Notes under the pieces: model-generated
What the model was told of the DNA's origin: nothing
The model's input: the letters and a program-made list of their open reading frames with translations, nothing else
The model's database searches: none
In this document: positions 8,583 to 46,620 of the stretch, piece by piece
How positions within the stretch are numbered: position 1 is the stretch's first letter
Layout of the letters: the number at the start of each line of letters is the position of its first letter
NCBI GenBank assembly: GCA_937125475.1
Contig: CAKZLL010000023.1
Span: 1 to 47,884 of the forward strand
Length of the DNA stretch: 47,884 bases
Direction of reading: 5' to 3'
DNA from: an uncultured Saprospiraceae bacterium
Lineage (GTDB): Bacteria; Bacteroidota; Bacteroidia; Chitinophagales; Saprospiraceae
Made by a program: the position numbers and the translations under genes

Positions 8583-9554
8583 ATGATACGATTAGGAGAT
8601 ATTTTTAAACGATATACTGGCTTTCTAAGGGATTTGAAAGTTGTTTATGTGATTAATAATTGGCTCAATGCTGATAAATTAAAACATAACAAAGCATTGT
8701 ATAAAAAATATGGTGTTCGTAAGTCTATTTTTAGTAATATCGGTCAAAAGGATTTGCCTAAAGATCTCACTGATATTCCTTGGATTGATCAGCCTAATGC
8801 TAAGGAAAACGTTCAAAATCATCCTGATTTTCAATCCTTTGATCAGCAAATGCAAGCCAAAATCTTGGATTTTATTGATAATGGCTATTTGATTATTAAA
8901 GGGTTTTATGATCAAGAACAAGTCGATCAATTGAACCAAACTGTTGATGATTTAATTGAAGATAATCAAGTTGGTTTCAATTTTTCTGGCAAAAAAATCA
9001 TGAATGCCCATCTGACCGCACCAAATATTGATGCGCATTTTAAGCAAGAAAAGTTATTGAAATTAATGTCTTTTTTATTAGGAAAAAAGGTCTTGCCTTT
9101 CCAAAGCATCAATTTTATTGAAGGAAGTGAACAACGCGCTCATTCTGATTCTATTCACATGACAACTGCGCCAGAAGGTTATTTGACCGCTACTTGGACG
9201 GCTTTAGAACCGTGTCATAAAGGCAATGGTCCGCTTTTTTATTACCCAAAATCACACAGAATTCCTTTTGTTTCGTGTGAAGATTATGAAACAGGGCATT
9301 CCAAATTCTTATTAGGTAAAAATAGTTATCCTAATTATGAGAATTATATGGACGACCTTATTCAAAAAAATCAGCTCAAAAAGGAGTTTTTCTTTGCGAA
9401 TACAGGCGATGTGCTCATCTGGCACTCTAATTTATTACACGGCGGAAGTGGTATTACTCAAGAAGGCACAACAAGAAAAAGCATCGTTTGCCACTATTAC
9501 GCAGAAGGTGTGATTTGCTATCACGAACTCACTCAAAGACCAGCTTTGATTTAA
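8583..9554 (+). CDS. Phytanoyl-CoA dioxygenase (PhyH) family protein (323 aa)
   Basis: The 2-oxoglutarate/Fe(II) dioxygenase facial triad is present: His187-x-Asp189 in QRAHSDSIHM and His286 in NLLHGGSG, with Arg298 (GTTRKS) placed to bind the 2-oxoglutarate carboxylate. GNGPLFYYPKSHR at ~215-226 is typical of PhyH hydroxylases. The enzyme would hydroxylate an unknown substrate in the cytoplasm. It is the second gene of a two-gene unit with the FkbM-like methyltransferase, suggesting successive tailoring of the same compound. The stop codon runs directly into an AT-rich repeat and a strong terminator. Confidence 0.88.
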   Translation: MIRLGDIFKRYTGFLRDLKVVYVINNWLNADKLKHNKALYKKYGVRKSIFSNIGQKDLPKDLTDIPWIDQPNAKENVQNHPDFQSFDQQMQAKILDFIDNGYLIIKGFYDQEQVDQLNQTVDDLIEDNQVGFNFSGKKIMNAHLTAPNIDAHFKQEKLLKLMSFLLGKKVLPFQSINFIEGSEQRAHSDSIHMTTAPEGYLTATWTALEPCHKGNGPLFYYPKSHRIPFVSCEDYETGHSKFLLGKNSYPNYENYMDDLIQKNQLKKEFFFANTGDVLIWHSNLLHGGSGITQEGTTRKSIVCHYYAEGVICYHELTQRPALI

Positions 9555-9596
9555 TTGATAATTGACAATGGATAATTGATAATGACCGAGTTGGCG
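9553..9596 (+). repeat. AT-rich repeat after a stop codon (copy 1 of a 26-bp exact repeat)
   Basis: Directly after the PhyH stop come iterations of TAATTGATAATTGA-like units, ending in GATAATTGATAATGACCG plus AGTTGGCG. Positions 9571-9596 recur exactly, in inverse orientation, at 16571-16596 after the Pnkp stop. The outer TAATTGATAATTG also pairs with CAATTATCAATTA at 9662-9674, so the whole intergenic segment can fold. Confidence 0.75.
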
Positions 9597-13470: not shown

Positions 13471-14820
13471 ATGTCTCAAAGAAGAAGACCAGAAGAGTTA
13501 GTGAAGTCCAAACCTTTAAACTCTCGACCAGAAGAAATTCAACTCAATGAAAATGAAGCAATTAAAAGTATTTTAGGCAATCCTCCAGGCTGGCTTTTAA
13601 ATTGGGGAATATCCCTCGTCGGGCTTTTTGTCGGCGCGATATTAATCATGAGTTGGATCATTAAATATCCCGACGTTATTCGCGCCGAAGTCGTCCTCAC
13701 CACCGAAAATCCACCTATTCGAGTTATAGCAGCCAATAGCGGTAGGTTAGACGAATGGCGGATTAAAGATCAAGAGCACATCACTAAAGGAATGGTCATT
13801 GCTAAATTTCATAGTACGGCAGCCACTAAAGATGTTATTCGATTAGAAGCCTTCTTATCACGAATAGAATATACCAATACTTTAGCTGGTTTTCCTAAAA
13901 GTTTACCTACACAATTGCGATTAGGAGAGCTTCAACCTGGTTTTTCCTCTTTTTCTGAAGCCTATAAAGACCTATTGTATTTTGGCAACACTAATAATGT
14001 AGCTATAAAGATCGCCTCATTAAAAAGCCAGATTAAACATATTGAAGAGCTTAATCTTTCTCAAAAAAGACAACAAGTTATTTTTAATAAAGAAGCTGAT
14101 ATTGCTCAAAAAGATTTGGAAAGACATCAGTATTTATATAAAAATGGAGGTTGTTCAGAAGTGGAACTCGAAGGAAAAGAATTAGGTGTGCTGCAATATC
14201 AACGACAACTTGAAAGTCTTCAATCTGGCATCACGAATAATCAATTACGGATCGAACAGATGAAATTACAGATGACTGAGCTGGGGCAAAACAAAACAGA
14301 TGGCGTAGTCAGTAAAATAACTTCGGTCAAAGAACATGCACACCGATTATTAAATGATGCGAAAAGTTGGAAAGAGAAATACCTCATTATTGCTCCAATT
14401 TCTGGGCAAGTTGCATTAGCACAAGTCTGGTCCGCTCAACAATTTATTACACCTGGTACTGAAGTGCTAACCATTATACCTCCTGATACTTCTAATATTA
14501 TTGTAGCTCGTGCAATGATGCCAGTCGAAGGAGCAGGAAAAGTTAAACCAGCAATGAGAACATTAGTAAGCTTCAAAAATTACCCAAGTCAGGAGTTTGG
14601 AACAATTGAATGTAAAGTCAAACACATTGCTCATATTCCTCAACGAAGTAAAGAAAGTGCGAGTTATTTAGTTTCATTAGATTTGCCGCAAGATATGACT
14701 ACCAATTTTGATAAAGAAATTCCTTTCCAACAAGAAATGATTGGAGATGCTCAAATTATTACCGAAGATCGTCGAATTTTAGAACGCATTTTATCACGCT
14801 TGATGGAGATGCTCAGTTAA
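13471..14820 (+). CDS. HlyD-family membrane fusion (adaptor) protein (449 aa)
   Basis: A cytoplasmic N-terminus (1-41) is followed by a single transmembrane helix at ~42-64, a lipoyl/barrel-sandwich half (NSGRLDEWRIKDQEHITKG), a long coiled coil (~185-300), the second lipoyl half (IIAPISGQVALAQVWSAQQF) and a C-terminal beta-barrel. It belongs to the type I secretion/bacteriocin exporter adaptor family. No ABC transporter or peptidase-ABC protein is next to it, which is unusual, since the partner normally sits upstream. The upstream LytTR regulator may control it. It is convergent with the TonB-like gene at 15007, with a miniature element inserted between them. Confidence 0.88.
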   Translation: MSQRRRPEELVKSKPLNSRPEEIQLNENEAIKSILGNPPGWLLNWGISLVGLFVGAILIMSWIIKYPDVIRAEVVLTTENPPIRVIAANSGRLDEWRIKDQEHITKGMVIAKFHSTAATKDVIRLEAFLSRIEYTNTLAGFPKSLPTQLRLGELQPGFSSFSEAYKDLLYFGNTNNVAIKIASLKSQIKHIEELNLSQKRQQVIFNKEADIAQKDLERHQYLYKNGGCSEVELEGKELGVLQYQRQLESLQSGITNNQLRIEQMKLQMTELGQNKTDGVVSKITSVKEHAHRLLNDAKSWKEKYLIIAPISGQVALAQVWSAQQFITPGTEVLTIIPPDTSNIIVARAMMPVEGAGKVKPAMRTLVSFKNYPSQEFGTIECKVKHIAHIPQRSKESASYLVSLDLPQDMTTNFDKEIPFQQEMIGDAQIITEDRRILERILSRLMEMLS

Positions 14821-14854: not shown

Positions 14855-14903
14855 TATAGCAAGGATGTATTTTTCAAGTCGAGTAAAACGCACTCTTGCT
14901 ATA
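14855..14903. terminator. Possible terminator with long loop after HlyD
   Basis: TATAGCAAG (14855-14863) pairs with CTTGCTATA (14895-14903), followed by TTTT. The loop is about 31 nt, longer than usual, so this is tentative. The miniature element begins 5 bp further on. Confidence 0.35.
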
Positions 14904-14908
14904 TTTTA

Positions 14909-15001
14909 GGTTCATTGACAATTTTTGCCATTTTCATCCAATGGGTCATGACTTATTGGATGTATTGAAATATTCATTCTGGCAAAAATTATCAATGAGC
15001 C
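14909..15001. mobile_element. Miniature inverted-repeat element, copy 1 (93 bp)
   Basis: The ends are 22-bp inverted repeats (14909-14930 and 14980-15001, 20 of 22 matching) of the form GGTTCATTGACAA...TTGCCA. Immediately outside are ATATTTTA (14901-14908) and ACATTTTA (15002-15009), 7 of 8 identical, as expected for an 8-bp target duplication. The right-hand copy contains the stop codon of the TonB-like gene. The core has its own hairpin (CATCCAAT / ATTGGATG). Reverse-complemented, its ends match those of the copy at 37292-37422 over about 31 and 25 bp. It has no coding capacity. The GG ends and AT-rich 8-bp duplications suggest an ISL3-like parent; this is inference. Confidence 0.8.
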
Positions 15002-15006
15002 ACATT

Positions 15007-15489
15007 TTATTTATTCGGAAGATTAATCGTGTAATTATAGCTTTTATTGATTTTTTCAGGGGTTTCAGTTTTTCCCTTTTTTTGAGGAACAATTGTATAT
15101 TGAACGGCTTGCGGTTCTTGCGGAACAGCTTCAATAGGCGGTTCAATTTGGGGTTTGGGTTTCGGCAATCGGAAGTGAATATGGGTTGTTTTATTATAAA
15201 TAATCCTCAAATTTCTTGTTCTTTGAGGAACAACAAAAACAAGCATTTTACAAAGGCGAATCGCTTCTTCTTCCAAACCATGACCATGTTTTGTTAGTGC
15301 TTTTGCTTTGAATACCTTGCCTTTGTGATTGATATGATATTGAACATGAACCGTTCCTTCTACTTTATTCGCAGCAGCTTCTGGAGGATATACCAAATTA
15401 TCCAAAATAAATTTTGTCATGGCTTCTACACCTCCTTTGTAAAAAGCCTTTTGTATAAAATCGTTCCCTTTCGTTTTTCTCTTTGACAT
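15007..15489 (-). CDS. TonB C-terminal-like domain protein without membrane anchor (160 aa)
   Basis: Residues ~18-110 look like a TonB C-terminal domain: FILDNLVYPPEAAANKVEG, TVHVQYHINHKGKVFKAKAL, and GHGLEEEAIRLCKML. The usual N-terminal transmembrane helix and proline-rich spacer are absent. Instead a proline-rich tail (LPKPKPQIEPPIEAVPQEP) follows the domain, so the order is reversed. No signal peptide is visible, so it may be cytoplasmic or a remnant of a longer protein. Its stop codon lies inside the target duplication of the miniature element at 14909-15001. Confidence 0.75.
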   Translation of the reverse strand: MSKRKTKGNDFIQKAFYKGGVEAMTKFILDNLVYPPEAAANKVEGTVHVQYHINHKGKVFKAKALTKHGHGLEEEAIRLCKMLVFVVPQRTRNLRIIYNKTTHIHFRLPKPKPQIEPPIEAVPQEPQAVQYTIVPQKKGKTETPEKINKSYNYTINLPNK

Positions 15490-16570: not shown

Positions 16571-16617
16571 CGCCAACTCGGTCATTATCAATTATCAACT
16601 CTCCATTATCAATTAGC
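16571..16617 (-). repeat. AT-rich repeat after the Pnkp stop codon (copy 2 of the 26-bp exact repeat)
   Basis: On the minus strand, directly after the Pnkp stop, come AATTGATAATGG, AGAGTT and GATAATTGATAATGACCG followed by AGTTGGCG. Positions 16571-16596 are the exact reverse complement of 9571-9596. Both copies lie immediately downstream of a stop codon in the same orientation relative to the gene. Confidence 0.75.
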
Positions 16618-19364: not shown

Positions 19365-20603
19365 ATGATTTTTAAAAACAAACTAACATTTATCCTCATT
19401 TTTTGCCTTTCTCATACCTTTTCTGGTAATAGCCAAAGTTTAGAATTTCAATGGAAAAAGAATTTTGAAAGCGAGAAAGGCAACTCGATCAGCGCCGTAA
19501 TTGAGGACGATGCTGGTCATATTGTTTTTGCTGGTGAGACTCGAAATGAGCACGCTCAATTAGATCTTTGGCTACTCAAAATTGATAAGTTAGGCAGAAC
19601 AATTTGGACTAAAAATTTTCCAAGAAGAGGACATCAAAGGGTTTTTTCACTCCTTAAAACCGAAACAGGTTTTATGGTTGGAGCTAATGATATTCCAACG
19701 AGAACAGCTGCTCGCCCATTCGTTTTATTTGTTGATAATGATGGAAATGCAACTAAAAAAACTAAAATTAAATACAAACAAGAGTTACGATTAAAGAAGC
19801 TCAAAAAAGTAGGTGATGACTTTTATGGTGTTGGAATAACCATCAAACCTATGGAAGATATTTTCACAGATGGCATTTTAATGAAATTCAATAAGGATTT
19901 TGATCTTGTTTCGGAAATGAACTTTCAACCCGATTCGGTCATTTTAGAACATCCTGTTACTAAATTACCTTGGAACTACGTTTCGACCGCAGAACCTAGA
20001 GATTTCTTAGTGATGGATGATGAAACGTTGCTTTTGACTGGTTATCAATCCTCAGAAAAAGTAACTGATTTTTGGACTGCCAATATTGATTTTAAAAACA
20101 AAAAAATACGCTGGGAAAGTAAAATTAATCAACATTTTGGTGGAAATGAGGCTTTTCAGTTGATCGAAACACCAGACCATCAACCCTTAATGATTGGAAC
20201 AAGATTTGACATTATCGGAGAAGTAGGAACTTACTATGGTAATGCAATAAAATTTGATAAAGAAACAGGAAAAGTCCTTTTTTCCGAGTTATATCAAGCT
20301 AAAAAGACTAACCGATTTGATCGTATTCTTCAAGCTTTCCCTACCAAAAACGGCTGTTTTTTAGTCGGATTGAGCGGGTTAGATCCTTATCGTCTAACAA
20401 AAGGGGAAGTACCACAAGATATTTGGGTTGTCTTTATTGATCATGATGGGAAAATGTTATGGGAACAAACCATTCCTCAAGTCGGAGAAGAACGTGGCGT
20501 GAATTTTTTAGTCACCGCCGAAAACGAGTATTATATTTTTGCGAAAGCTTATCAAAAAAATGGGACAGGTGATTTACAGGTTTTAAAGATTGCATTTCCG
20601 TAA
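19365..20603 (+). CDS. Secreted beta-propeller-like protein, tandem paralogue 1 (412 aa)
   Basis: A signal peptide (MIFKNKLTFILIFCLS through GNSQS, ~24 residues) is followed by about six propeller-like repeats with recurring motifs such as IVFAGETRNE, LDLWLLKIDKLGRTIWTK, MVGANDIP and LLLTGYQSSEK. The pattern resembles PQQ/BamB-like or delta-60-repeat propellers, but I cannot name the family. It has no T9SS-type C-terminal domain. The next gene is a close copy over its whole length, including part of the leader upstream of the start (ATTTAAnATnC, then AGGTTTTATGA-like). Function unknown; extracytoplasmic location is well supported. Confidence 0.8.
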   Translation: MIFKNKLTFILIFCLSHTFSGNSQSLEFQWKKNFESEKGNSISAVIEDDAGHIVFAGETRNEHAQLDLWLLKIDKLGRTIWTKNFPRRGHQRVFSLLKTETGFMVGANDIPTRTAARPFVLFVDNDGNATKKTKIKYKQELRLKKLKKVGDDFYGVGITIKPMEDIFTDGILMKFNKDFDLVSEMNFQPDSVILEHPVTKLPWNYVSTAEPRDFLVMDDETLLLTGYQSSEKVTDFWTANIDFKNKKIRWESKINQHFGGNEAFQLIETPDHQPLMIGTRFDIIGEVGTYYGNAIKFDKETGKVLFSELYQAKKTNRFDRILQAFPTKNGCFLVGLSGLDPYRLTKGEVPQDIWVVFIDHDGKMLWEQTIPQVGEERGVNFLVTAENEYYIFAKAYQKNGTGDLQVLKIAFP

Positions 20604-20699: not shown

Positions 20700-21935
20700 A
20701 TGACTTTTAAAAACAAACTAATATTTCTTCTTATTTTTTGCTTTTGTTATTCTTTTTATGGCAATAGCCAAAGTTTAGTTGTTCAATGGAAAAAGAATTT
20801 TGGAGGAGAGAAAAATGATGCGATTAGTGCCATAGTCGAAGATGATGCTGGTGATATTGTTCTGACAGGTGAAAATCAAAACGAGCATAATCAATTGGAT
20901 CTTTGGATTCTCAAGATTGATAAAACGGGCAAAACGATTTGGAGCAAAACTTTTCCAAAGAGAGGACATCAAAGGGCTTTTTCGATTCTCAAAACCGAAA
21001 CGGGTTTTATAATTGGTGGGAATGATGTTCCGACAGGGACACAAGCTCGTCCATTTATTTTGTTTATAGATAATGATGGAAATAAAACTAAAAAAATCAC
21101 AATTGAATATCAACAAGAATTGCGCTTCACGAAACTCAAAAAAATAGGCAATTATTTTTATGCGATTGGAACGACTAGCCGCCCGTCAAATGATCTTTTC
21201 ACAGATGGCGTTTTAATTAAATTCAATAAAAACTTTGATGTCGTTTGGGAAATGAAATTCAAATCTGAACCGCTCATTCATGAGCATCCGATTACTAAAA
21301 AACCTTGGCATTATGCTTCAACGGCAGAACCTAGGGATTTTTTAGTGATGAATGACGAAACTTTGATTTTGACGGGTTATCAATCTTCTAAAAAAGTAAC
21401 CGATTTCTGGACGATGAATATTGATACTAAAAATCAAAAAATACGCTGGGAAAGTAAAATCAATACTTATTATGGTGGTAATGAGGCTTTTCAATTAGTC
21501 AAAACGCCTGATAATCAACCTTTAATGATTGGAACGCGGTATGATAAACCAAAAGATTTTACCTATTTTGGTAATGTTATTAAATTTGATAAAACAACTG
21601 GAAAGGTACTTTTTTCGGAACTTTATCAAGCGGAAAAAACAGAACTTTTTGATCGTATTCTTAGCGCTTTTCCTTCAAAAAATGGTTGTTTTTTAATTGG
21701 ATTGACTGGAACAAATCCTTCTCGCGTAACAACAGCGGAAGTACCACAGGATATTTGGGTCGTTTTCATTGATCACGATGGAAAAATGTTAGGGGAGGAA
21801 ACTATTCCTCAAATTGGTGAAGAACGAGGTATTGATTTTTTAGTCACCGCTAAAAATGAGTATTTTATTTTTGCGAAAATTTATAAGGAAAACGGTACGA
21901 CTGATTTGCAGGTTTTAAAAGTAGGATTTCCATAA
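20700..21935 (+). CDS. Secreted beta-propeller-like protein, tandem paralogue 2 (411 aa)
   Basis: The signal peptide (MTFKNKLIFLLIFCFCYS...NSQS) and the same repeat layout as the preceding protein are present, with clearly over two thirds of residues identical by eye and one two-residue gap near residue 285 (DKPKDFTYFGN versus DIIGEVGTYYGN). Conserved segments include GHQRAFSILKTETGF, STAEPRDFLVM and VPQDIWVVFIDHDGKML. The copies have diverged in both silent and amino-acid positions, so the duplication is not very recent. Function unknown. It is convergent with the M48 protease gene. Confidence 0.8.
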   Translation: MTFKNKLIFLLIFCFCYSFYGNSQSLVVQWKKNFGGEKNDAISAIVEDDAGDIVLTGENQNEHNQLDLWILKIDKTGKTIWSKTFPKRGHQRAFSILKTETGFIIGGNDVPTGTQARPFILFIDNDGNKTKKITIEYQQELRFTKLKKIGNYFYAIGTTSRPSNDLFTDGVLIKFNKNFDVVWEMKFKSEPLIHEHPITKKPWHYASTAEPRDFLVMNDETLILTGYQSSKKVTDFWTMNIDTKNQKIRWESKINTYYGGNEAFQLVKTPDNQPLMIGTRYDKPKDFTYFGNVIKFDKTTGKVLFSELYQAEKTELFDRILSAFPSKNGCFLIGLTGTNPSRVTTAEVPQDIWVVFIDHDGKMLGEETIPQIGEERGIDFLVTAKNEYFIFAKIYKENGTTDLQVLKVGFP

Positions 21936-27180: not shown

Positions 27181-27280
27181 TATATTGGAATGATTTTTAC
27201 AATAAACTAAATAACCTTAATCAAACGTTAGAGTTTAATATTTATCAAGTATCCATTATAAACTATCAATTAAATAACAT

Positions 27281-37113: not shown

Positions 37114-37291
37114 CTATTTAGTTCCTAGAGAAGACTATTAAATTTCTTCTTAAGAAACAAGTACTTATTAATTTATGGATATTGAAATAGCACTTATTCC
37201 TCTTGTGAATTAGAAGAGATAACAAAAGGAATATACATTTGATATGACTATTGGAGATGTAAGGTTCTAATCGTAATATTGGATTTAAATA

Positions 37292-37422
37292 GATTCATTG
37301 ACAATTTTTGCCAGAATGAATATTTTTTAAATCCAGCGGTGGCTTGCCCCGTTGTTTTTCAAAGAGTTAGATCAATGGAGCAAGCCCACATTAGAATAAA
37401 TGGCAAAAATTGTCAATCAACC
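37292..37422. mobile_element. Miniature inverted-repeat element, copy 2 (131 bp)
   Basis: The 22-bp terminal inverted repeats 37292-37313 and 37401-37422 match at 20 of 22 positions. The element is flanked immediately on both sides by the identical octamer TTTAAATA (37284-37291 and 37423-37430), a target duplication. Its ends match the reverse complement of copy 1 (14909-15001) over ~31 bp (one mismatch) and ~25 bp (one mismatch). The inner ~75 bp differ and form their own imperfect hairpin (GTGGCTTGC...GCAAGCCCAC). It has no coding capacity. Confidence 0.85.
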
Positions 37423-37650
37423 TTTAAATATTCTAATTGGATATATCGAAATGGGAAAAAATAGATTAAATTTGGAATAGAAGACAAGTAGAGCATGTTT
37501 AATTTTATTGGTATTAATTACATTTTATAACAACATCAAAAACCTTATTTCGTTATTTTTGTATCAACTACTCTTCTCTCATCAAATCCATTAAGTAGGG
37601 GTAATAAAAAATCTAAAGACTACTTAAATCACGGATTTTTATCATTTGAT

Positions 37651-46548: not shown

Positions 46549-46620
46549 TTAATTGATACTATCAATTGATGTCCAACATTCGGAGGACATTATCAATTAT
46601 TAACTATCAATTATCAATTA
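46549..46620 (+). repeat. AT-rich repeat between atpF and atpH
   Basis: Iterated TATCAATTA-type units with a short hairpin (ATGTCC / GGACAT) follow the atpF stop. The units are related to those at 9553-9596 and 16571-16617. The repeat happens to be open in frame with atpH, creating a false N-terminal extension. Confidence 0.6.

Follow-up and report, generated by a model that had tools for sequence, protein, structure and literature searches.

How bacterial miniature elements acquired their non-coding interiors is usually left open. In Microcystis aeruginosa PCC 7806, a 187-nt miniature inverted-repeat transposable element (MITE) has been attributed to an ISL3 transposase (PMC11448079). Like the element that we describe here, it is non-coding, forms a stem-loop, has terminal repeats that match a ~1.2-kb ISL3 element (GGCTCTTCG), is flanked by 8-nt direct repeats, and is present in tens of copies that are mostly intergenic (PMC11448079). 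The Tn3-derived TIMEs are also non-autonomous, are thought to be moved in trans, and combine common ends with varied content (PMC4133298). REPs, including GTAG- and CGTC-tagged palindromes, are high-copy and intergenic as our elements are (PMC3733652), and hairpins in some relatives likewise form inverted pairs.

The window that we analyzed is a stretch of 47,884 nucleotides from an uncultured Saprospiraceae bacterium, hereafter the host. It holds two short elements, copy 1 and copy 2. Judged by its sequence, copy 1 is very probably an ISL3-type MITE that is moved in trans.

Results

Copy 1 has the structure of a complete miniature element

Spanning 93 bp, copy 1 (14909-15001) is complete: it has 22-bp terminal inverted repeats, an internal hairpin, and octamer flanks. 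The features at and around the two copies are the following.

13471-14820, plus strand: gene for an HlyD-family protein (profile match PF13437), convergent neighbor of copy 1
14901-14908, no strand: left 8-bp target duplication of copy 1, ATATTTTA (sequence)
14909-14930, plus strand: left terminal inverted repeat of copy 1, GGTTCATTGACAATTTTTGCCA (sequence, genome-wide end matches)
14935-14962: internal 12-bp hairpin of copy 1, CATCCAATGGGTCATGACTTATTGGATG, apparently the kept part of a longer 131-bp hairpin (folding, consensus alignment)
14968-14998: right end of copy 1, 31 nt, AATATTCATTCTGGC plus right terminal repeat, 97% common with the element at 37292-37422 in reverse
14980-15001, minus strand: right terminal inverted repeat of copy 1, minus-strand reading GGCTCATTGATAATTTTTGCCA (sequence)
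15002-15009, no strand: right 8-bp target duplication of copy 1, ACATTTTA, including the stop codon of the TonB_C gene (sequence)
15007-15489, minus strand: gene for a TonB C-terminal domain protein (profile match PF03544), its 3' end abutting copy 1
37284-37291, no strand: left target duplication of copy 2, TTTAAATA (sequence)
37292-37422, minus strand: copy 2, 131 bp, subfamily I, with ends as in copy 1 (sequence, subfamily clustering)
37423-37430, no strand: right target duplication of copy 2, TTTAAATA (sequence)

The terminal inverted repeats of copy 1 are GG-ended and match at 20 of 22 positions, and its octamers are identical at 7 of 8, with one mismatch. The architecture that the original prediction had read from the letters (22-bp terminal repeats, an internal hairpin, and near-identical 8-bp flanks) was thus borne out. 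Folding of the whole element gave -39.6 kcal/mol (z -6.95). The octamers of copy 2 are perfect (8/8). We found five occurrences of the end motif in the window at <=3 mismatches, where 0.22 was expected, and four of these are the ends of copy 1 and copy 2. The right-end 22-mer occurs twice in the window against an expectation of 0.00.

The HlyD-family gene ends 88 bp ahead of copy 1. On the other side, the right-hand octamer contains the stop codon of the TonB_C gene (plus-strand TTA, 15007-15009), as had been predicted from the duplicated target. The gene retained its stop because the octamer that holds it was duplicated.

Other repeated DNA was seen in the window. A second dispersed repeat family (TAATTGATAATTGACAATGGATAATTGATAATGACC) has four copies, in both orientations, at 9552-9596, 16571-16615, 27242-27275, and 46585-46620. 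When 13.4-16.2 kb was used as the query, DNA outside the ISL3-type element also matched contigs C196, C528, and C110. Tandem paralogous genes of ~411 aa lie at 19365-20603 and 20700-21935, with DNA that is 78-79% identical in two long blocks.

The ends and an 8-bp duplication recur throughout the host genome

The host assembly is a 5.76-Mb draft of 559 contigs and is 92% complete. Within it, we found 231 matches to the 21-nt end at <=1 mismatch, compared with 0 for the reversed control pattern, and 276 matches to the inner 17-mer at <=2 mismatches. Copies of these elements number well over 100 in the host genome. They are short (mostly 87-133 bp) and non-coding. Several host contigs end inside or beside copies, as expected because repeats break assembly.

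To characterize the flanks, we used a sample of 84 paired host elements, taken from stretches around ~100 of the listed sites, with the flanks of other elements as the baseline for chance identity. The 8-bp flanks were identical in 35 of the 84 copies (42%), compared with 0.24% by chance, and their mean identity was 0.80, compared with 0.43 by chance. At 7 and 9 bp, mean identity was 0.53 and 0.52. Since flank identity peaks only at 8 bp, the flanks are a target duplication that extends over 8 bp and no further. Beyond the octamer the flanks of the copies are unrelated. The original prediction took copy 1 for a mobile miniature element, a view against which a lack of further copies, or flanks shared past the octamer, would have spoken; the genome-wide copies of the ends and the 8-bp target duplications argue for it.

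One 132-bp copy (L007, G000:C42:22251-22382) has flanks that are inverted rather than direct (GCATAGAAAAAAA / TTTTTTCTATGC). Such flanks could reflect an insertion into a palindrome, a recombination event between copies, or an assembly join.

ISL3 insertion sequences of Saprospiraceae carry near-identical ends

We searched 298 Saprospiraceae genomes for the end sequence and found it in 23. Full-length elements with GGTTCTTTGACAATTTTTGCA at both ends measure 1267 bp (G091), 1276 bp (G218), and 1279 bp (OFTM40, L271); the ISL3-family insertion-sequence loci are L062, L063, and L271. Intact 395-aa transposases are encoded in the G218 and OFTM40 elements. The transposases of G218 and G091 are 72% identical, match PF01610 at 3.2e-61 and 1.8e-57, respectively, and match the NCBI ISL3 equivalog NF033550 above its cut-off. 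At L271, the flanks of the insertion sequence are identical at 7 of 8 bases. The host end form GGTTCTTTGACAATTTTTGCC agrees with the ends of the three ISL3 elements at 20 of 21 positions and the left end of copy 1 at 19 of 21. Host element ends differ from insertion-sequence ends at one or two positions: the final A is a C, and in many copies the T at position 6 is an A. In OFTM40, a miniature element (L259) has the same ends as the ISL3 element of that genome, together with perfect octamers. These near-identical ends give good support to the suggestion, made originally from copy 1, of mobilization by an ISL3-like transposase. The end sequence was not found in viral contigs.

Several transposase families (e.g., IS1595, IS66, and IS6) give 8-bp duplications, and a member of one of these could have mobilized the elements. 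However, the three full-length elements that we found with these ends all encode ISL3-type transposases, and we consider it very improbable that another family was responsible. With an ISL3 transposase as the mover, the enzyme would be supplied in trans, would recognize the GGTTCWTTGACAATTTTTGCC ends of the non-coding element, and would insert it at AT-rich sites between genes, leaving an 8-bp stagger. Repair would then turn the stagger into the 8-bp duplication.

The search for an insertion sequence with the same terminal repeats, which the original prediction had proposed, succeeded in relatives, where there are three, and failed in the host, which has only a degraded ISL3 gene lacking such ends. 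This gene, in contig C101, is the only PF01610 locus of the host and shares 23% identity with the insertion-sequence transposase across the compared part; we rejected the locus as the parent. Against the ISL3 reading, the host draft assembly (559 contigs, 92% complete) yielded no intact transposase of this family flanked by these ends, and the host element ends show the one- or two-position differences given above. An autonomous partner within one genome is usual for MITEs of this type but is not essential. The transposase of such an ISL3 insertion sequence probably moved the host copies, and the source insertion sequence was presumably lost from the host genome or lies within an assembly gap.

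Avoidance of harm could explain the placement of the copies

Among the 84 host copies, 80 do not overlap an open reading frame of at least 100 aa. Where both neighbors are known, 25 copies lie in convergent, 11 in divergent, and 42 in tandem gaps, and the median distance is 63 bp to 3' ends versus 112 bp to 5' ends. This placement would suit a structure under selection in intergenic DNA, for example a bidirectional terminator or a stabilizer of 3' ends, for which mobility would be past and secondary. However, the target duplications and unrelated flanks are signs of spread by transposition, and at the copy 1 site an Rfam scan found no family and a terminator scan found no T-run terminator pattern. 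The placement bias would also arise if copies avoided promoters and genes. To account for the scarcity of copies in genes and for the convergent bias, no more than avoidance of harm is needed, and we regard a selected structure as unlikely.

In the one genome of the same genus (G022), orthologues of the genes that flank copy 1 are present without the element beside them; the intergenic DNA is not alignable there, and no clean empty site was found.

Copies 1 and 2 have related cores

The host elements form the following subfamilies.

Subfamily I, 130-131 bp: commonest in the host; includes copy 2
Subfamily II, 132 bp: core hairpin GATAGGAGGCACTTT..AAAGTGCCTCCTATC
Subfamily III, 92-93 bp: includes copy 1
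Subfamily IV, 93-95 bp: related to subfamily I

According to the original prediction, the two window copies have ends in common but different cores, which would be unusual for simple deletion derivatives. We found instead that their cores align. The consensus of subfamily III aligns with that of subfamily I over the whole length of III, with ~38 nt absent that comprise the loop and one hairpin arm. With the ends left out, and also the right subterminal stretch that both forms share, the score of the core alignment was reached by 0 of 2000 shuffles. The retained part, TCCAATGTGGGCTTGCCCCATTG in subfamily I, is already a palindrome on its own. From these alignments, subfamily III is likelier to be a deletion form of subfamily I than its precursor. 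We infer that ~38 nt were lost from the hairpin of the 131-bp form to give the 92-93-bp form, which would then have spread as a subfamily of its own. The core of subfamily II has no relation to subfamily I.

A further subfamily (L155, L156, L160, L167, and L168) has variant ends, GGGTCTTTGACAATTTCTGCC / GGTTCTTTGACAATTTCTGCC, around core I.

Unrelated cores lie behind the same ends

Clustering by core divided the 156 distinct miniature elements that carry these ends into 27 groups; the cores of two groups were too short for comparison. Of the 300 pairs among the 25 representative cores, only I and IV are alike, and therefore about 24 unrelated cores exist within one end set. Those unrelated to core I comprise host subfamily II and elements of other genomes. 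Eighteen of the 25 representative cores fold better than shuffles at z < -2. Only the core of L079 (G218) clearly comes from the interior of an insertion sequence (~80% over 55-61 nt); the fold of this core is poor. Perfect octamers flank 39 of the 68 non-host elements whose flanks are readable.

Two core hairpins are not confined to these ends. In genus g4, the hairpin CCTATAAGGTTT..AAACCTTATAGG occurs within ISL3 ends, within a second end set (GGCTCATGTAGGAAATCAGGTGGAA), and without either. In genome G240, one arm of this hairpin gave 60 matches, but the ends gave one site. For the CGGACGGCGATAGCC hairpin pair in G063, 28 sampled matches, some of them neighbors within one element, divide into 12 inside both ends, 7 with one end, and 9 with none. 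Many of the end-free hairpin copies that we tested have no significant outer arms. These observations support an exchange of cargo for the CCTATAAGGTTT..AAACCTTATAGG and CGGACGGCGATAGCC hairpins.

In genera other than that of the host, L179, L184, and L284 belong to another miniature family, bounded by GGCTCATGTAGGAAATCAGGTGGAA, in which two of the three copies have 8-bp duplications. This family encloses a hairpin that is also present inside ISL3 ends.

For core I in the host, all 16 sites that we checked carry these ends (some degenerate) or reach a contig end, and we rejected the idea that core I is a captured free-standing host repeat. Elsewhere in Saprospiraceae, we found just one chance-like match to core I in each of two other genomes. 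At L171 (G000:C375:10126), a core-II-like hairpin (AGATAAGAGGCACTTTGAAAATGCCTCTTATCT) stands alone after a gene; core II may have come from a host terminator of this kind.

Since the elements are palindromic, intergenic, and high-copy, and relatives of the core hairpins of other genomes are also found without these ends, we considered whether the hairpins move as REP/RAYT-type repeats through a Y1 tyrosine transposase, the outer repeats being incidental. A Y1 single-strand transposase leaves no target duplication, whereas the 8-bp duplications here are clear, and the core-I hairpin was seen in the host only within ends. Furthermore, we looked at the flanks of 12 Y1 loci, from four genomes, and saw neither the tested hairpins nor the ends there, save at one locus in G022, a weak gene match below cut-off with a look-alike of one hairpin nearby. 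We therefore rejected the idea that Y1/RAYT genes move the hairpin cores, and mobility of this type seems to us highly unlikely for these elements.

A different reading fits the many cores behind one set of ISL3 ends. Tentatively, we suggest that these 20-nt ends may be an exchangeable shell that has repeatedly enclosed unrelated palindromes across Saprospiraceae, some of which also occur alone or in the second end set (GGCTCATGTAGGAAAT...), so that cargo and shell would evolve as separate modules.

A TTGA(A/T)AATCAA-like motif (TTGAAAATCAA) is centered in the otherwise unrelated cores of L108, L261, L325, L274, L270, L309, and L061. At least six unrelated cores have TTGAWAATCAA at 0.49-0.56 of the length, although the motif was spotted before testing and an unbiased word count stayed within the shuffle maximum, so that it is only a lead. 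If the ends are indeed an exchangeable shell, TTGA(A/T)AATCAA at the core centers would be a shared functional loop.

Discussion

Our results identify a likely mover for a very abundant repeat of the host Saprospiraceae genome, and they correct the earlier view that the two copies in the window have unrelated cores. About two dozen unrelated hairpin cores enclosed by one end sequence make a clean system for asking where the interiors of miniature elements come from. In the literature searched, we found no papers on ISL3-type miniature elements in Saprospiraceae, although this does not prove that there are none.

Since an ISL3 miniature element is known in Microcystis, the Saprospiraceae element is a further case of a known kind. 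The Microcystis element belongs to another phylum and has another end sequence, 9-nt ends, one core, and identical copies (PMC11448079). In contrast, the Saprospiraceae elements have 21-22-bp ends, >100 copies, several subfamilies, and many unrelated cores across genomes. The ISL3 insertion sequences of Saprospiraceae (L062, L063, and L271) share with the miniature elements the ends GGTTCTTTGACAATTTTTGCA and the GG terminus; they differ in that they encode a transposase, and no miniature core except that of L079 clearly comes from their interior. TIMEs belong to the Tn3 family, make 5-6-bp duplications, are >=262 bp long, and usually have one copy per genome (PMC4133298). REPs are bare palindromes of 20-40 bp (PMC3733652), whereas our elements are bounded by terminal repeats of ISL3 type and flanked by an 8-bp target duplication. 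Copy 1 is an ordinary kind of parasite DNA; the same ends around many unrelated hairpins are less ordinary.
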